Positions 41,942 through 50,019 of a stretch of DNA of 50,019 bases are shown piece after piece. How positions within the stretch are numbered: position 1 is the stretch's first letter; each line of letters starts with the position of its first letter. Made by a program: the position numbers and the translations under genes. Under the pieces are notes generated by a model, which did not search any database, was not told where the DNA came from, and worked only from the letters and a program-made list of their open reading frames with translations. Location of the stretch: positions 1-50,019 of the forward strand of contig JAVCDA010000072.1 of the NCBI GenBank assembly GCA_030765145.1, given 5' to 3'. Origin of the DNA: Candidatus Saelkia tenebricola. Its GTDB lineage: Bacteria; Omnitrophota; Gorgyraeia; Kaelpiales; Kaelpiaceae.

Positions 41942-44419
41942 TTATATATTACCCACTTCAACGATAACAGCCTTTTCAGGATTAAGATACTTCTTTATAA
42001 ATTCAACCAAGCTATTTTTAGTAAGACCACCTATCTCATCTAAATATTTCTCAACCTCCTGATATCCAAGGCCTAAACTCTCGTTAACAGCTAAACGAAA
42101 AGAATAAGAAGAATTAGCAATTATATCTCTGTGATAGCGAGTCCTAAGCATAGCCTTGGCATCCTCTATTTCTTCCTCTGTTATATTTCCATCTCCTAAA
42201 TCATTCAGAATGGCAACCATCTTATCCAAAACCTGGTCTTTTTTATCAGGGGTTGTAGCAACATAAAAACTCATAACACCCGGCTCAGGCCCCAAGAACA
42301 TACTCCCGCCTAAAGCATATGCACCCCCTATCTCACGCCTAATTCTATTAAAAAATAACGAACCCTGACCAGAAACCAAGGCCTGTATTAGATCCAAATG
42401 ATACCTGGTATTTGAAGTAACTTCAGGAACCATAAACCCCATTTCCACCACCACCTCCTGCTGGGGAATTTTTCTGCTGACAGTTATTTGAGATTCAGGA
42501 TAAGAATCCTGCTGAAGCAGAATTTGGAATTCTTCACCTTTCCAATTGCCAAGCAGTTTTTTCACATCCTCTTTGACTTCACTTCCATCAATATCCCCTG
42601 CAATAGAAATAACACAATTAGAAGGTGTAAAAAACTTATCAGTGAAACCATTTAAATCTTCTACCTTTAAGCCCGAGAGCGATTCTATCGTACCTTGAGA
42701 CATTAATCTATATGGATGTTTTTTATACATCGATGCACGAATAATTTCTAATGCCTGATAAAAAAGATCTATTTGGGAATCTCTGATTTTTCCTATTTGA
42801 ATGTTTTTCTGAATATCTAATTCATCTGCCTGAAAAACAGGATTAATTAACAAACCGGGGATTTCCTTAAGAACTTCTTTGAATCCAGATTGGACAACTT
42901 CAACTGTAAATCCAATACTATTATTTCCACTTACAGGGCTTATCTTACCGCCCAGTTCTTCAAACCTCTTTTGAATATCTGCTGTAATCAAAACACGGGG
43001 AATAATTTCTGAAATTCCGTTTATCTTTTCATTTTCAGCCCTAACCCCACCCTCAAAAAGCACGGTAACTGCTGTTAAAGCTGAAGAATCATCATTAGAA
43101 AGAACCAATTTAAGCCCATTCGGATATTCTATTTTTTCAAGTTTTCTATCAATTTTTTTATTTAGAATATTTTTTTTCTCTTCTTTTTCGGGGACAAGCA
43201 AAACCTCAGTAGATATATCAATTTTGAGATATTTTTTGGCAATTCTCTGTAAGTCCTCGCTATTCAATTGGAGATATTTCCTTAAATATTCTGCGTTAAA
43301 TTTATAATTCCCTGTTAACCCTTCATTACGGGAAAGACTTTGTGCAATATCTAAAGGCATCTCCTGGTCCTTTAAAAAATCAAAAGACGCTCTTTTCTTC
43401 AGCCTCTCTATTCGAGAATCATTGAATTGACCATTTTTAATCTGCTCTAAAATCTGTTTAAGCTCATCCTGAAATAAATCAACATTTTTTTCATCTAAAA
43501 CAGCAAGAAATCCAAAAATACCTTGAGAATGAGGAGTATAGTTAAGAGATGAAACACTATAACAAATTCCAGACTCAATAAATCTTTCGTAAAGAGGAGC
43601 ATCCTTACCCCAGCTTAAGTAATCAGACAATAAATCCAGCGCTTCTGAATCAGCATCAAAGAGAGAAACCCCAGATAAAGAAATAAAAGAATACACCAGA
43701 TTGCCAGGATAATTTTGAGTATATTGAGTATGAAAATTCTTTTTTTCTTTGGCAAAACTCCCCTTCCGTATACATCTCGGTAAAAATTCAGATCCATAAG
43801 AAGCTATTACCTCTTTTACATGACTATAATCCACACCGCCTACCACCGAGACAACAGCATTATTAGGCACATAATTTTCTCCGTGAAACTCGTTGATGTC
43901 TCCAAGCGTAAGCTGTTTAAGTAATGCTGATTCACCTAAAATAGGATATTTATAAGGATGACTAACATAAGATTTTTCAAATCCTATTTTAACAACAAGC
44001 GAGGAGGGATTATCATCTCTGAATTTCTCCTCTTTTAAGACCACCTCTCTTTCCCTTTCAAAAACATCCTCTTCTAAAGAAGGGTTAAATATAGCAGATA
44101 AGAAAATCTCTATGGATTTTTTAAAATTTTCTTTCGGGACTTCAAAATAATACAACGTATGATCCAGCGTCGTATATGCATTAGATATAGCACCTAATTT
44201 TCTCAACTCCTCCTCTAAATCTTTTCTGCCTTCAAAAACCAGGTGTTCCATCAGATGCGATATTCCGGATCCGATAAATTGCTCTTCATCTGCACTACCT
44301 GTGCCTATAAATATGGACACACCTACAATCTCACCAGGATAATATTTATAGAGCACCCCCAAACCATTATCAAGCTCGGTAAACTTTACATCTTTATAAA
44401 AACTATTCATTTTTTCCAT
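41942..44419 (-). CDS. M16-family zinc metallopeptidase (two-domain)
   Basis: I start at ATG 44417-44419, which has AAGGAG 6 bases upstream; a longer in-frame GTG at 44536 would add 39 residues that look like a signal peptide but lie over a terminator-like hairpin. The 825-residue protein has two M16 halves. The first has the inverted zinc motif HLMEH at residues 55-59 and a downstream Glu-rich motif; the second (from about 430) lacks it, as in other M16 dimers such as the processing peptidases. It cleaves peptides in a closed chamber; the substrate is unknown. Whether it is cytoplasmic or exported depends on the start chosen. Confidence 0.88.
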   Translation of the reverse strand: MEKMNSFYKDVKFTELDNGLGVLYKYYPGEIVGVSIFIGTGSADEEQFIGSGISHLMEHLVFEGRKDLEEELRKLGAISNAYTTLDHTLYYFEVPKENFKKSIEIFLSAIFNPSLEEDVFEREREVVLKEEKFRDDNPSSLVVKIGFEKSYVSHPYKYPILGESALLKQLTLGDINEFHGENYVPNNAVVSVVGGVDYSHVKEVIASYGSEFLPRCIRKGSFAKEKKNFHTQYTQNYPGNLVYSFISLSGVSLFDADSEALDLLSDYLSWGKDAPLYERFIESGICYSVSSLNYTPHSQGIFGFLAVLDEKNVDLFQDELKQILEQIKNGQFNDSRIERLKKRASFDFLKDQEMPLDIAQSLSRNEGLTGNYKFNAEYLRKYLQLNSEDLQRIAKKYLKIDISTEVLLVPEKEEKKNILNKKIDRKLEKIEYPNGLKLVLSNDDSSALTAVTVLFEGGVRAENEKINGISEIIPRVLITADIQKRFEELGGKISPVSGNNSIGFTVEVVQSGFKEVLKEIPGLLINPVFQADELDIQKNIQIGKIRDSQIDLFYQALEIIRASMYKKHPYRLMSQGTIESLSGLKVEDLNGFTDKFFTPSNCVISIAGDIDGSEVKEDVKKLLGNWKGEEFQILLQQDSYPESQITVSRKIPQQEVVVEMGFMVPEVTSNTRYHLDLIQALVSGQGSLFFNRIRREIGGAYALGGSMFLGPEPGVMSFYVATTPDKKDQVLDKMVAILNDLGDGNITEEEIEDAKAMLRTRYHRDIIANSSYSFRLAVNESLGLGYQEVEKYLDEIGGLTKNSLVEFIKKYLNPEKAVIVEVGNI

Positions 44420-44470
44420 AATACTCTCCTTGAATGAAATAAAATTATTGCCTGGAGAAAAAAGAGAACC

Positions 44471-44519
44471 AAAAATAAAAAGCGAACAGCATACGCTAAA
44501 AGAAATATTTCTGCTTCGC
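44471..44519 (-). terminator. Attenuator or terminator after rpsU
   Basis: On the minus strand GCGAAGCAG (44511-44519) pairs with CTGTTCGC (44482-44489), one bulged base, and is followed by TTTTTATTTTT (44471-44481). A palindrome AGAAATATTTCT sits in the loop and could form a competing fold. It precedes the M16 ribosome site. Confidence 0.55.
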
Positions 44520-44552
44520 TTACGTAAACTGTTCACTATTCACTATGTAGTA

Positions 44553-44735
44553 TTATTTTACAGGACTCTTTTTACGCTGTTTCTTAAGGTGTTTTCTTCT
44601 TTTAATCTCACTGGGCTTTTCATAATGCCTAAGAGCCCTAAGTGCTTTCATAAGCCCTTCCTGCTCTACTTTTCTTTTGAACCTCCGTAATGCCTGATCC
44701 AAACCTTCGCCAGGCCGTACATCAACTTTCGCCAC
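44553..44735 (-). CDS. rpsU: Ribosomal protein S21
   Basis: S21 is a small 30S protein near the anti-Shine-Dalgarno region of 16S rRNA. The 60-residue protein begins MAKVDVRPGEGLDQALRRFK and continues RALRHYEKPSEIKRRKHLKK, the family pattern, with a basic tail. The start is GTG (44733-44735), with AAGGA about 11 bases upstream. A consensus promoter lies just upstream, and an attenuator-like hairpin follows the stop, so rpsU output can differ from that of the M16 gene. Confidence 0.96.
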   Translation of the reverse strand: MAKVDVRPGEGLDQALRRFKRKVEQEGLMKALRALRHYEKPSEIKRRKHLKKQRKKSPVK

Positions 44736-44769: not shown

Positions 44770-44798
44770 ATTATATTTTGCATCATGGAAAATGTCAA
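44770..44798 (-). promoter_or_regulatory. Consensus sigma70-type promoter of rpsU
   Basis: The minus strand carries perfect TTGACA (44793-44798) and TATAAT (44770-44775) boxes with a 17-base spacer, the strongest promoter match in the window. The predicted start is about 28 bases before the GTG of rpsU. Confidence 0.88.
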
Positions 44799-44828: not shown

Positions 44829-46931
44829 CTATTTTACAATAACTTTAACTCCAGTAATATCTAAATCTCTTTCTGTAAGCACAATCAATTTAACTCGATA
44901 TGTTCTCGAATTATTATAAACATGGGTAGGATTAGCTTGAAATGAAAACGGATTCTCACTATCATCAAATACCCAGAAATACGTATAACCAACAGGGCCT
45001 GTAGAATCATCTCCGTAAAACCGCACTGTTTCTCCTGTAGCTACCTCTATTTCCGTACTTCCTTTCTCTCCAACCCATGCCACTGCTTCAACACCGGTAT
45101 TAACAGCCAAATTAAAATCAACACTCTTGCTTTCACCTGCTTTAACATAAACTGTTTTTACTTCTTTTTTATATCCCTGTTTCCAAGCAGACAATGTTAG
45201 CTTAGAATTAAATTCCGTTATTTCAAAACGATAATTTCCGTTTTTATCACTAATAACACTCTTCAAAGAAGATAACCCGGATATTATTTTTACTTCTGCA
45301 CCCCCCAATAGACCACCTTCTTTATCCTTAACCTTACCTGATATAATCGTTTTATCCGGTGAAGGGTTATCCCCGCCTACAATAACAGTAACTTTATCAA
45401 CATCCAAATCACTCTCTGTAAAAGCAAAAAGAGTCACAGTATATTCCCCAGCTTTACTATAAGTATGCGCAGGGTTAATCAGGTTTGAAAATGGCTCTTT
45501 AGCATCACCAAAAACCCAGAAATATTGCAATTTAACATTCTCAGGACCTGTTGAATCATCACCGTAGAATTTGACTTCCTGCCCCACATTAACTTCGACT
45601 TCCTTCTGGTTTCTTTCTCCTGCCCATGCTACTGCATTAACATCATTCTCTATAGGAGGCTCTACTATCTCCCCTGCTTCATAAATAGCCTCGAATGCAT
45701 TGACACGGCCACGACCAATATCTTTTTGAGAATTTTCGTTAACTATAGGATCTGCTGTATCCTCAATTATTCCTTTAACTTCATCAGGCGTAAGCTCTGG
45801 ATTTTTAGATATCAAAAGCGCTGCAATTCCGGAAACAAACGCAGCTGCCATAGATGTTCCATCCATATAACCGTAAGAATCCCCAGATAAAGTAGAATAA
45901 ATATCAACCCCAGGAGCTGCAACACTGTAATACTCTTTACCTGAAGGGTTATAATTCGTACCTTTTGTAGGCAACAGCGGAGAAAAAACATAACAAGGCT
46001 CATCACCTCTATCAGTTGCTGTGACACCGATTACTTCATCGTAACCTGCAGGAATATATTTTAAACTACTCCTGTCATTACCCGCTGCAGCAACAAGAAC
46101 TATCCCTTTTTCATGCGCTTTTCTTACTGCTGTTTGAACAGATTGAGAAAAATAAGGTCCTCCCAGACTCATATTAATTACTTTTACCCCATTGATATTC
46201 CTCGCCCTATAAATAGCAGTTGCAAGGTCACCCATTGAAATATCACCATTTGAATCTGCTACTTTTATAATGACTATCTTGGGCTTCCACGTTGCACCTG
46301 CAACACCGATTCCGTTATCAGATGCAGCACCTATTATTCCCGCAATATGAGTACCATGGCCGCTAGATGAATCATCGGCAGCTGATTTAGAAGGATTTAA
46401 TATATTATACGAATTTTCTTGATCTATTCTTGCCTTTAAATCAGGATGATTTAAATCGCAGCCTGTATCAAGAATTGCAATTTTTACACTACTGCTGCCC
46501 TGCTCCTCACTCCAAGTTTTAGGCAATTGAACTTGACGCAACCCCCATTGTAAAAAAAAACCCGCATCATCCGGAGACACAGCATCAACAGCAGATGTAC
46601 CCAAATTTATGGAAGAACTTCCTTCTATTTTAAAGCGATAATTAAATTCTACATATTCTATCGATTCCAAAGACTCTAACGACTTTTTAACTTCATCAAT
46701 GTTCGCATCTTTTGGAAATTTCAATTTAAACACACCTGGTATAATTGCTCCTTCTATGATTTCCCCGTTGTATGAATTCATGATTTGGAAAACATCCTGA
46801 GGTAAATTATCCAGTTCTTCTGTGAGACCTACCAATAATACCCCTTCTTCGTACGGAATACCTTCAAATGCAGAAGCACTGCCCATAAGACAGTATAAAA
46901 ACAATATTGAACCAGAAAGTATTTTCTTCAT
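44829..46931 (-). CDS. Secreted subtilisin-like serine protease with PKD and regulatory-like domains
   Basis: The 700-residue protein has a signal peptide (about 1-21), a propeptide-like region (about 22-105) and an S8 catalytic domain (about 125-415). The triad is Asp155 (AILDTGCDL), His192 (SSGHGTHIAG) and Ser360 (DGTSMAAAFVSG), with Asn285 in AAAGNDRSS. Two PKD domains (about 430-520 and 610-700) share VKFYGDDSTGP and VRFYGDDSTGP cores; between them lies a carboxypeptidase regulatory-like beta domain (about 525-605, ISGKVKDKEGGLLGGAEVKI). It ends an operon with two acidic proteins, so those may be its partners or substrates (inferred). Exported location fits. Confidence 0.93.
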   Translation of the reverse strand: MKKILSGSILFLYCLMGSASAFEGIPYEEGVLLVGLTEELDNLPQDVFQIMNSYNGEIIEGAIIPGVFKLKFPKDANIDEVKKSLESLESIEYVEFNYRFKIEGSSSINLGTSAVDAVSPDDAGFFLQWGLRQVQLPKTWSEEQGSSSVKIAILDTGCDLNHPDLKARIDQENSYNILNPSKSAADDSSSGHGTHIAGIIGAASDNGIGVAGATWKPKIVIIKVADSNGDISMGDLATAIYRARNINGVKVINMSLGGPYFSQSVQTAVRKAHEKGIVLVAAAGNDRSSLKYIPAGYDEVIGVTATDRGDEPCYVFSPLLPTKGTNYNPSGKEYYSVAAPGVDIYSTLSGDSYGYMDGTSMAAAFVSGIAALLISKNPELTPDEVKGIIEDTADPIVNENSQKDIGRGRVNAFEAIYEAGEIVEPPIENDVNAVAWAGERNQKEVEVNVGQEVKFYGDDSTGPENVKLQYFWVFGDAKEPFSNLINPAHTYSKAGEYTVTLFAFTESDLDVDKVTVIVGGDNPSPDKTIISGKVKDKEGGLLGGAEVKIISGLSSLKSVISDKNGNYRFEITEFNSKLTLSAWKQGYKKEVKTVYVKAGESKSVDFNLAVNTGVEAVAWVGEKGSTEIEVATGETVRFYGDDSTGPVGYTYFWVFDDSENPFSFQANPTHVYNNSRTYRVKLIVLTERDLDITGVKVIVK

Positions 46932-46941
46932 CTTTTTCTAC

Positions 46942-48672
46942 CTATTTTTCCGACTCCGTCTCCACTGCTCTTTCGTTTATCTCATCAGTTATCGCTTTAA
47001 GTGCTTCATCCAAATTCTCTAATATTATGTCTCCCATATAAAGCCCGGCAATAATCCTATCCTTTACAATGTCTATATCTTCAGCTCCCAGCTCATAATT
47101 CTCGAAAAACTCATTTATGCTTCCTATAACCTCATCCAGATAATCGCTGGGTAGTTCCTCAACCGAGCCATCATCATTGAGGATATAACCTGCAATAAGT
47201 TGAGAAGTAAATTGGTCTAAGTTTATCTCATCTATTAAATACTGAATTCTTTCAGCAGGCTCCATATCCGAATCCGAAATAATTGCAGAATAATTACCAA
47301 GCCAGCTTAAGGTAGTAAGTACAGACTCTGCCTTTTCTACTGATTCTTCCTCAGTAAAACCTAAAGATACATAATAATCCTTAAGGTGATTAAACTTCTC
47401 TTCTTTTGTCTCTAAAGCATTGAATACTGCTAATTCGTCTTTATCAAAACCTATTGAGTTTAACAGTTTATTTTTGGCAGCTTGCGGTTCATTCTTAGCA
47501 AGATTTATAATTTCCTCAAAATCATCATGAGAAATCTCTAATCCATTCATTGAGTCACTTATGACATCATTTACACGATTTTCCAATGAGCTTTTCTGTC
47601 TTAAGTTATGCTCTCTATTGACCCCACTTCCGACAGAACTGCTGTAAGAAGACTGGACACCGCTACTGGGATTATCTCCTTCTTCTCCACCATATCCACC
47701 TTCTGGTTGCTGTTGTCTTGGAGGATAAGTTCCTAATGTTAGACCATTTTCATCTTTAAAAGTAATCCTAGTTATTTCTCCTGTCTCTGGATTCTTGATA
47801 TAACTAATACCATCTACACTAGCAGAGTCTATCTCAAGATGCTGGATAAGAGCAGCAGTTGTAACTGCACTATCGACACCATCTATTTCTATAGTAAGTG
47901 GGAAACTACCTGTAATGTTTTCTCCATCTCCATTATAAATCTGCATACCTTCTGAAGATTCTATTTCCCATTTACCTTCACTTGTTACGCTATCTACAAT
48001 ATCAGGCTCCGTTACTAAAAGCATCGGTTCATCATTATCAGATCCAACGGAATATTTCTGACCTCCTCGTTGCTCAGAATCATAATCATCTTCATCATAT
48101 ATAGAAACATCCCTTTGAGCACGGTTATTAACCTCATCAACCTTTTCAATATCACTGTAAAGCATCATTAATTCGTCTGCATCGTTCTGTCGCAAAAGAT
48201 AAAAATCATTTTCAGTTTGAACAACGATATCTCCGACTTCCACTACAGGTAAATTGTTATGAGTGATTCCGGAATCTACAAGCGCATTGTGGAAAGCCCC
48301 GTTATCAGTCGTAAAAGTATCAGCTATATGACTATTGAAAACATCGTCATCTTCATCTGTAACTACAACTACGTTTGTTTCTTCATCATCGAAATCAACA
48401 TCACCGCCACTTGCATTTATAACATCTTCAACTTCAGCTAAAGTCTCTTGATCATCTACTTCCTGATGTTCTGTCTCACCTTGAGTTACATCAGTCTCAA
48501 CACCTGCTGGCAGTAACTGTGAAGCATCATTTTCTGGTGGAATTGTCTCATCTCCCGGATCGAAACACCATCCCTCATCCACATAAGCTAAAGCATTCTC
48601 TCCATTAAAAACCATACAAAATATAGCAAAAGTGAACACTAAAATTGTAACTTCTCCAAATATTTTATTCAT
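46942..48672 (-). CDS. Acidic exported protein with novel helical module
   Basis: The 576-residue protein has a signal peptide (about 1-29) and a very acidic region (about 40-200, with DDEETN and DEDDD runs). A beta-rich middle (about 225-315) follows, then a Gly/Ser/Gln linker (320-350). The C-terminal helical region (384-566) is shared with the upstream protein: for example ERIQYLIDEINLDQF versus ARIDYLMNECGLDEW. I recognise no known family. The SD is GGAGG. It lies 46 bases after the upstream gene and 10 bases before the subtilase, so it is likely a cargo, chaperone or substrate of that protease; this is inferred. Confidence 0.78.
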   Translation of the reverse strand: MNKIFGEVTILVFTFAIFCMVFNGENALAYVDEGWCFDPGDETIPPENDASQLLPAGVETDVTQGETEHQEVDDQETLAEVEDVINASGGDVDFDDEETNVVVVTDEDDDVFNSHIADTFTTDNGAFHNALVDSGITHNNLPVVEVGDIVVQTENDFYLLRQNDADELMMLYSDIEKVDEVNNRAQRDVSIYDEDDYDSEQRGGQKYSVGSDNDEPMLLVTEPDIVDSVTSEGKWEIESSEGMQIYNGDGENITGSFPLTIEIDGVDSAVTTAALIQHLEIDSASVDGISYIKNPETGEITRITFKDENGLTLGTYPPRQQQPEGGYGGEEGDNPSSGVQSSYSSSVGSGVNREHNLRQKSSLENRVNDVISDSMNGLEISHDDFEEIINLAKNEPQAAKNKLLNSIGFDKDELAVFNALETKEEKFNHLKDYYVSLGFTEEESVEKAESVLTTLSWLGNYSAIISDSDMEPAERIQYLIDEINLDQFTSQLIAGYILNDDGSVEELPSDYLDEVIGSINEFFENYELGAEDIDIVKDRIIAGLYMGDIILENLDEALKAITDEINERAVETESEK

Positions 48673-48717
48673 CTTTTTGCCTCCTTCAATTAACTAAAAA
48701 TATTTTAAAAGAACAAT

Positions 48718-50019
48718 TTACTGTTGATTCATATATTCCAGATACCATTCCTGATATCTCTTCAAGCCTTCTTCTTCTCCATGTGTTTCTATAAGTATTA
48801 ACCTATATTGATCCGCAAAGATAGAGGTATCGTCATCCATGCCTTGACTTGCAACTCCAGTAGTAGTAACGTAATTACTCTCATCATTAACCACATCGCC
48901 AACTAAACTCGATGATGGAGCATCTTGAGCATCTTCATTACCCACATCAATTGCTGTAGCTCCCGCAACTTCAGAAATAATTGCTTTTGCTACGTCATAG
49001 GCATTGTCAGGATTCATATCTCCTAGCAAAAGTGCAATCAATACTTTTTCAACAATGGCTTCTGTTTCAGCATCACTAAATCCAGGCGCTTCTGAGCTCC
49101 TGACATCTGTAGCTGCACCTGGCTGTGAAACAATCTGCTCTCTACTGGAGAACTGAGAATCACCTACTTCAGTTGTGTATTCATCATACGGCTGTTGCAC
49201 ATCTTGCACTTGAGCTTCTGTGTCTGTTACAACGTCTTTAGCTATTGCTTCGGCTTCTTGTTTGCCATAGCCTAAATCTTCTGCAGCTTTCACTATTGCA
49301 TCATACACATCCTCAAGGTAACTAGAATAACTTATCCTCTTCAAGCTTCCATCTTCCTGCAATTCTTTACCCACCCAGAGCGCAGCAGACCATTCATCTA
49401 AACCGCACTCATTCATCAAATAATCAATTCTGGCATGATCAACTGTTTTACCGAAGAATTCCGTTGCCTGTTCCTCAGTTAACCCCATTTCCATCAATCT
49501 CTGCTTCTGCTGGTACGTATTAAGATCTGCTATTTCTTCCATAAATGTATCCAGCCAATCTTCTTTCTGCAATTCTGACCAATTCTCACTAAGATAGGTC
49601 GCAATAGCATCCTCGCTTTCAAACGTATTTAAATCAGAAATAATCTCAGCTGCCCTTTCGGTCGCCGTGGCATAGTCCATACCTTTTTCCTCAGCTAAAT
49701 ACGTAATCAACTTTTCTAACTTCTCGCTGTCTGAAAGAGCAATGAAATCTTCAATGCTCTCAATACCTTCTATATCCAAAATATCGATATTTTTATCCGC
49801 AATATACTGTTCCAACTCATCTGGATTCATGCTTAAAATATTCTCAATTTCAGCTTCATCTTCAATTCCAAACACATCCTTAAGGTATTGTTTGGTTTCA
49901 TCCTGCATCTCAAAATAAGCTGTGATTTCCTCATCCGTATATCCTTCCTCCTTCAACTTATCTTCTGCATCCTCTTTGCTCATGCCAAGCAATTCTTCAA
50001 TCAAATCCTCATCAGTAAT
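48718..50019 (-). CDS. Acidic protein with repeated helical motifs, 5'-truncated at the window edge
   Basis: The frame is open from the window edge; no convincing start is visible (a TTG at 50004 is only the first possible). At least 428 residues are present. It is rich in Asp and Glu and almost wholly helical. Short motifs recur at roughly 40-60 residue intervals, such as LGMSKEDAED, KGMDYATATE, MGLTEEQATE and LGYGKQEAEA, each a Gly-hydrophobic pair followed by an acidic, Ala-containing helix. Residues 51-123, 187-247 and 313-348 align in order with the downstream protein. Residues 265-312 are a polar linker without counterpart. Family unknown; it may be part of a much larger protein. Confidence 0.75.
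   Translation of the reverse strand: MTDEDLIEELLGMSKEDAEDKLKEEGYTDEEITAYFEMQDETKQYLKDVFGIEDEAEIENILSMNPDELEQYIADKNIDILDIEGIESIEDFIALSDSEKLEKLITYLAEEKGMDYATATERAAEIISDLNTFESEDAIATYLSENWSELQKEDWLDTFMEEIADLNTYQQKQRLMEMGLTEEQATEFFGKTVDHARIDYLMNECGLDEWSAALWVGKELQEDGSLKRISYSSYLEDVYDAIVKAAEDLGYGKQEAEAIAKDVVTDTEAQVQDVQQPYDEYTTEVGDSQFSSREQIVSQPGAATDVRSSEAPGFSDAETEAIVEKVLIALLLGDMNPDNAYDVAKAIISEVAGATAIDVGNEDAQDAPSSSLVGDVVNDESNYVTTTGVASQGMDDDTSIFADQYRLILIETHGEEEGLKRYQEWYLEYMNQQ

Follow-up and report, generated by a model that had tools for sequence, protein, structure and literature searches.

We report that two neighbouring genes of Candidatus Saelkia tenebricola (Omnitrophota) encode acidic proteins that share a C-terminal helical module, which, judged from its sequence, is a real but narrow and previously unclassified family. 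The module is kept at the same spot in close relatives without the subtilisin-like protease gene found beside it here, which argues for the reality of the family and leaves a partnership with the protease unsupported.

The window, i.e. the whole stretch of 50,019 nt that was analysed, belongs to a genome of 1.63 Mb in 88 contigs (G000). The ORFs of a large acidic protein, of a smaller acidic protein (p576) and of a subtilase are all located on the minus strand, separated by gaps of 45 bp and 10 bp (Table 1). As stated in the initial annotation, both neighbouring proteins are acidic, with 23-25% D+E compared to 5-7% K+R. Hydrophobic N-terminal leaders, read by eye, were recognized on both acidic proteins and on the subtilase, and these predicted signal peptides support the export of all three. 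Because a perfect match to a sigma-70-type promoter occurs between the subtilase gene and rpsU, the acidic genes and the following housekeeping run are probably transcribed separately, with rpsU, the M16 peptidase gene and the DUF1844 gene probably forming a transcription unit apart from the acidic genes.

Table 1. Features of the module locus in the window (positions on the 50,019-nt stretch).
Feature	Position	Strand	Basis or remark
C-terminal 433 residues of the 2215-aa ORF: acidic helical repeat domain, insertions, C-terminal tail	48718..50019	(-)	contig overlap
Helix-turn-helix repeat units (residues 1797-1849 of the 2215-aa protein)	49819..49977	(-)	motif and unit alignment
Last repeat unit (residues 1950-1977 of the 2215-aa protein)	49435..49518	(-)	motif and unit alignment
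C-terminal block B of the 2215-aa protein (ARIDYLMNECGLDEWSA...)	49294..49437	(-)	alignment, shuffle test
C-terminal block C of the 2215-aa protein (...ALLLGDMNPDNAYDVAKAIISEV)	48976..49071	(-)	alignment, shuffle test
p576, 576-aa exported acidic protein: signal peptide, domain conserved in G001/G003, linker, helical module	46942..48672	(-)	
p576 middle domain (residues 63-323)	47704..48486	(-)	orthologous in the G001 586-aa and G003 550-aa proteins
p576, two repeat units (residues 397-454)	47311..47484	(-)	modelled as helices, pLDDT about 70-93
p576 block B (RIQYLIDEINLDQF...)	47116..47253	(-)	alignment, shuffle test
p576 block C (DRIIAGLYMGDIILENLDEALKAITDEI)	46978..47067	(-)	alignment, shuffle test
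S8 subtilase, 700 aa: signal peptide, fervidolysin-type prodomain, catalytic domain, PKD, CarboxypepD_reg, PKD	44829..46931	(-)	
Sigma-70-type promoter match, TTGACA-17-TATAAT, perfect	44770..44798	(-)	between subtilase and rpsU
rpsU	44553..44735	(-)	GTG start; constant neighbour; read by eye as ribosomal protein S21
M16 peptidase	41942..44536	(-)	constant neighbour; Pfam; 50-56% identical in relatives

The ORF of the large protein has 433 codons inside the window and is open at the contig end. The first 42 residues of this truncated protein recur with 100% identity at the end of another contig of the same genome (C42), and the two contig ends overlap by an exact 127 bp, in frame; 127 bp is a typical length of an assembler's largest k-mer. 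The joined ORF comprises 2215 codons (6.6 kb) and starts at L007:101 in contig C42, while the true start of the protein is likely Met31 (MKVTKILLLSFLLIIPLNFAYS), with a predicted signal peptide. Next come about 1,550 residues in which no domain was recognised, then a Gly/Pro/Asn linker and finally the acidic C-terminus. The contig break is located inside the repeat array, which leaves the repeat-unit count at the junction uncertain. No Pfam domain was found above cut-off in the large protein, its N-terminal region gave no match even within the same family, and the middle domain of p576 was not detected in it.

Three ordered blocks had initially been described as shared between the two proteins. 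Two of them beat composition-preserving shuffles: block 2 (residues 187-247 of the truncated protein and 472-529 of p576; block B in Table 1) scored 82 versus 22.7 (sd 4.5), with 0 of 3000 shuffles as high (P<1/3000), and block 3 (313-348 and 532-566; block C) scored 41 versus 21.1 (sd 4.4; P=0.003, 3000 shuffles). Of the two quoted sequence pairs, one was located at residue 196 of the truncated protein and residue 474 of p576, the other at residue 329 of the truncated protein and residue 542 of p576. The pairing of block 1 (51-123 with 384-451) reached a score of only 26 versus 27.3 (P=0.58, 3000 shuffles) and hence does not hold as described; for p576 residues ~394-458, the true counterpart is located mostly outside the window, in contig C42. 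With the large protein completed, BLASTP aligned it to p576 at E=5e-6 over 68 aa.

Acidic helices easily score against one another, and one of the three claimed blocks was at chance level, so that convergence of acidic amphipathic helices has to be weighed against homology. We regard convergence as very improbable, since blocks B and C exceed the shuffles, reversed sequences gave chance-level scores, and a protein from a relative in another genus of the same family (G004) bridges both window proteins (BLASTP 7.5e-10 and 3e-5; shuffle P about 1e-6 and 2e-6). For the module similarity taken whole, these sequence comparisons rule out a chance origin.

The unit of the module is helical, degenerate and roughly 28 residues long, with the core G-[ILFYM]-[ST]-[DE]-[DE]. 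We counted the motif G-[ILVFYM]-[STDE]-[DEK]-[DEK] flanked by predicted helices and took the expectation from shuffles. In the C-terminal domains it occurred 8 times versus 0.3 expected in the large protein, 2 versus 0.09 in p576, 3 versus 0.10 in the G004 protein and 4 versus 0.17 in a more distant relative from G061, whereas the N-terminal regions of the same proteins were at background (1 versus 0.55 expected in the large protein). This contrast outweighs the P values, as the motif was picked after viewing these sequences. The spacing of most aligned 28-residue units is roughly 23-31, with a few larger gaps, and more repeat units of the large protein are present in contig C42 (residues 1684-1798). 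Motif enrichment and unit spacing together indicate that the blocks noted earlier are parts of a predicted degenerate helical repeat array that is closed by two conserved C-terminal blocks. Module length ranges from 220 to 580 aa, the C-terminal domain covering residues 356-576 of p576 and 1633-2215 of the large protein. The order of linker followed by module is common to the large protein, p576 and the proteins of G001, G004 and G061.

The statement that the acidic module belongs to no recognised family held in the sequence databases searched: both acidic proteins yielded sub-threshold matches or none against Pfam, NCBIfam, PHROGs, PADLOC and PDB sequences. The weak Pfam matches to PASTA (E=0.027, 14.8 bits versus a cut-off of 23.2), RuvA_C (E=0.22, 12.5 bits versus 24) and UBA_HYPK (E=0.5, 10.2 bits versus 27) fall short of family membership. 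PASTA and the helical hairpins of the UBA-like and RuvA_C type resemble the module in the short Gly-hydrophobic-[ST]-acidic turns between its helices, but the likeness stops at the turn motif, and all are far under the curated cut-offs. AlphaFold2, with three sequences as input, modelled helices throughout, with a mean pLDDT of only 48 and 61 for the two models but about 70-93 for the helices of p576 residues 382-459. A Foldseek comparison of both low-confidence models with the PDB gave no match at E<0.001.

The same locus in relatives was located via the M16 peptidase gene, and the comparison covered G001, G003 and G004 (the contig of G002 ends too early). A module protein is encoded upstream of rpsU and the M16 peptidase gene in four genomes of a single Omnitrophota family (G000, G001, G003 and G004). 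The run accC-accB-efp-pepP-aroQ-DUF1844-M16-rpsU (some gene names were assigned by eye) is preserved in G003 and also in the visible parts of G001 and G004. Directly upstream of rpsU lies the gene for the module protein, of 586 aa in G001, 550 aa in G003 and 397 aa in G004, the latter two cut by the contig end. Over the middle domain, p576 is orthologous to the proteins of G001 and G003, whose modules are weakly similar to those in the window (shuffle P 0.0005-0.04).

A search for further copies of the module in the full genome had been suggested; the profile matched only the two adjacent carriers in G000. Across 384 genomes of the class, the profile yielded one further carrier, in another family (G061). 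This divergent relative, encoded by a 2015-aa ORF, has a leader and a linker rich in Gly and ends in a C-terminus of the same type (profile E=1.2e-4; BLAST about 1e-7 when two sequences were compared). No second copy was found in the order of G061 (3 genomes), and two relatives there are without the module. The phylum-wide profile search (384 genomes) gave weak matches only, which were taken as chance after inspection. Weak profile matches in G153, G256, G397 (in a frame of 39,033 codons), G150, G189 and G060 were treated in this way: judging by the ORFs at or around them, they represent an operon of T4P type, unrelated small ORFs, a giant helical protein, a phosphoglucose isomerase and an enzyme fusion, and the scanned ORFs contained no convincing repeat units.

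Some loci encountered in these genomes deserve mention in their own right. In G060 (contig C11, L142:682-10338), an ORF of 3218 aa, whose beginning resembles a signal peptide, combines transketolase, transaldolase and phosphofructokinase domains in a single protein (Pfam). In G061, a cluster of central-metabolism enzymes (L143/L144, G061:C1:48815-84870; Pfam) lies mostly on one strand and comprises PGI, glucosamine-6-P isomerase/6PGL, PRPP synthetase N, GAPDH, class II aldolase, PFK, an aminotransferase and the N-terminal domain of PPDK, certain domains being partial or diverged. Each enzyme has a hydrophobic leader, usually with an R-R motif at about residue 28-54, and the cluster looks like an exported glycolysis-type gene set; a literature search on such a set found nothing.

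The protease beside the acidic genes was correctly recognized as an S8 enzyme with PKD domains (PF00082, 187.9 bits versus a cut-off of 21.8). It has the catalytic residues D155, H192 and S360 and the oxyanion residue N285 in canonical contexts. With its fervidolysin-type prodomain, PKD and CarboxypepD_reg domains it is an ordinary complete member of peptidase family S8; nothing about it is unusual compared to other S8 enzymes, and the unclassified part of the locus consists of its neighbours alone. PADLOC matches to IetS/subtilase would allow a defence-system reading, which we rejected because the enzyme has a leader, a prodomain and PKD domains.

A protease-substrate system, in which the subtilase matures or sheds both module proteins at the cell surface, draws on the short intergenic gaps, which suggest one operon, and on the completeness of the enzyme, with its catalytic residues and prodomain. 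It was also the proposal of the initial annotation, which had named the lack of a subtilase neighbour in relatives as evidence that would refute it. The comparison with relatives does speak against it: no S8 gene occurs between the module protein and rpsU in G001, G003 and G004, and the PKD subtilase is missing from the slot in three of three relatives. Moreover, the window genome has eight S8 matches (none to three in the family relatives), so that one S8 neighbour is weak evidence. G001 does encode an S8-family protein about 4.5 kb upstream of its p576 orthologue, but it is compact and of a different kind. In G061, a stand-alone subtilase prodomain lipoprotein is encoded about 1 kb downstream of the 2015-aa relative. 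In G000:C18, moreover, two large secreted proteins are followed by an S8 gene, as is one in G004:C165. Because of these nearby S8 and prodomain genes, a looser link of module proteins to subtilase-type proteins is possible, while we consider processing by the adjacent enzyme unlikely.

Regarding these additional subtilase-type genes, the compact S8-family proteins (L040:9707-10663 in G001, 318 aa; L158:498-1427 in G003, 309 aa) appear to have only a few residues between the motifs of the catalytic Asp and His (IDSTYNGHG), and the G001 protein contains GTSFSSPHVAG further on; in G003 the gene order around the orthologue is the same, but on a contig of its own. The G061 lipoprotein (L141:10819-11238) combines a fervidolysin-type prodomain (PF22148, 2.3e-16) with a lipoprotein-like leader and may be a secreted protease inhibitor. 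The G000:C18 operon (L159:206-8650) encodes large secreted proteins without Pfam domains, of 1256 and 998 aa, and then the S8 protein; the arrangement in G004:C165 (L160) is similar but partial. More large secreted subtilases are encoded in the window genome on contigs C51 (L046), C33 (L045), C14 (L047) and C38 (L048), and the copy on C14 seems to be divided between two frames.

We tentatively favour the reading that both acidic proteins are exported envelope or extracellular proteins, attached or assembled by the shared C-terminal helical repeat domain, with the subtilase as an accessory neighbour. Both would be exported by the Sec pathway via their leaders and might then pass through a secretin-based system. 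Secretins were found in five of five genomes tested, and contig C51 of G000 carries T2SS/T4P-type ATPase, platform and pilin-like genes as well as other subtilases. Each protein would consist of a signal peptide, a fast-evolving, probably beta-rich region, a flexible Gly/Pro/Asn linker and the acidic C-terminal domain. The variable N-terminal regions would be displayed facing outward, while the linker and the C-terminal array would attach the proteins or couple them, either with one another or with an envelope partner that they share, a module function that we infer. The subtilase would be an independently acquired, lineage-specific accessory exoenzyme in the shared operon.

That the only two genomic copies are adjacent and co-oriented suggests that the modules work with one another or with a partner common to both, and fits partners rather than a general sorting signal. 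A C-terminal export or sorting signal read by a dedicated secretion system would account for a module that in every case follows a linker and lies close to the C-terminus of exported proteins which are otherwise unlike. We consider it quite improbable, as the profile matches two adjacent carriers only despite the many other large exported proteins and subtilases in G000, and 220-580 aa is long for a signal. Comparably improbable are ligand- or cation-binding acidic helical arrays (e.g. for metal or calcium capture at the surface) instead of assembly domains: the C-terminal domains of both window proteins contain 24% D+E, but those of G001 and G004 are less acidic (18-19%), the N-terminal region of p576 is equally acidic, and the alignments contain no conserved D/E cluster.

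A more specific form of the attachment reading, which we place on the unlikely side, would make the new repeat-domain family a paired C-terminal coupling domain, linking a smaller protein encoded alongside to a giant exported stalk protein on the surface of a nanobacterium that may be host-associated. The scope of that family so far is one Omnitrophota family plus one divergent relative, and the module is missing from most Omnitrophota, which argues against a general role. Large domain-less exported Omnitrophota proteins are hard to compare because of their fast divergence. The C-terminal domain, recognisable across genera and faintly across families, provides a starting point for delimiting one such protein family and, at 200-300 residues, a fragment that could be expressed for structural and binding work.

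The nearest described kind are the poorly conserved giant proteins of Omnitrophota, while the repeat domain itself matches no described family in the databases searched. In their description (PMC10066038, Nat Microbiol 2023), giant ORFs are defined as >20 kb, adhesion or a cell coat is proposed for some, and large domain-less exported proteins are attributed a role in how Omnitrophota contact other cells. A 39,678-aa protein is reported for Velamenicoccus archaeovorus, and the open frame on G397:C47 (L150), with 39,033 codons, is of similar size. The proteins analysed here are likewise large, poorly conserved, exported-looking and without recognised domains, from the same phylum, and the 2215-aa protein shares with giant ORFs the paucity of domains and the poor conservation. 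They differ in size, since 6.6 kb for the 2215-aa protein and 1.7 kb for its partner are below the >20 kb limit, and in the shared C-terminal repeat domain, which the available part of that account does not mention and which is a feature of the pair described here.
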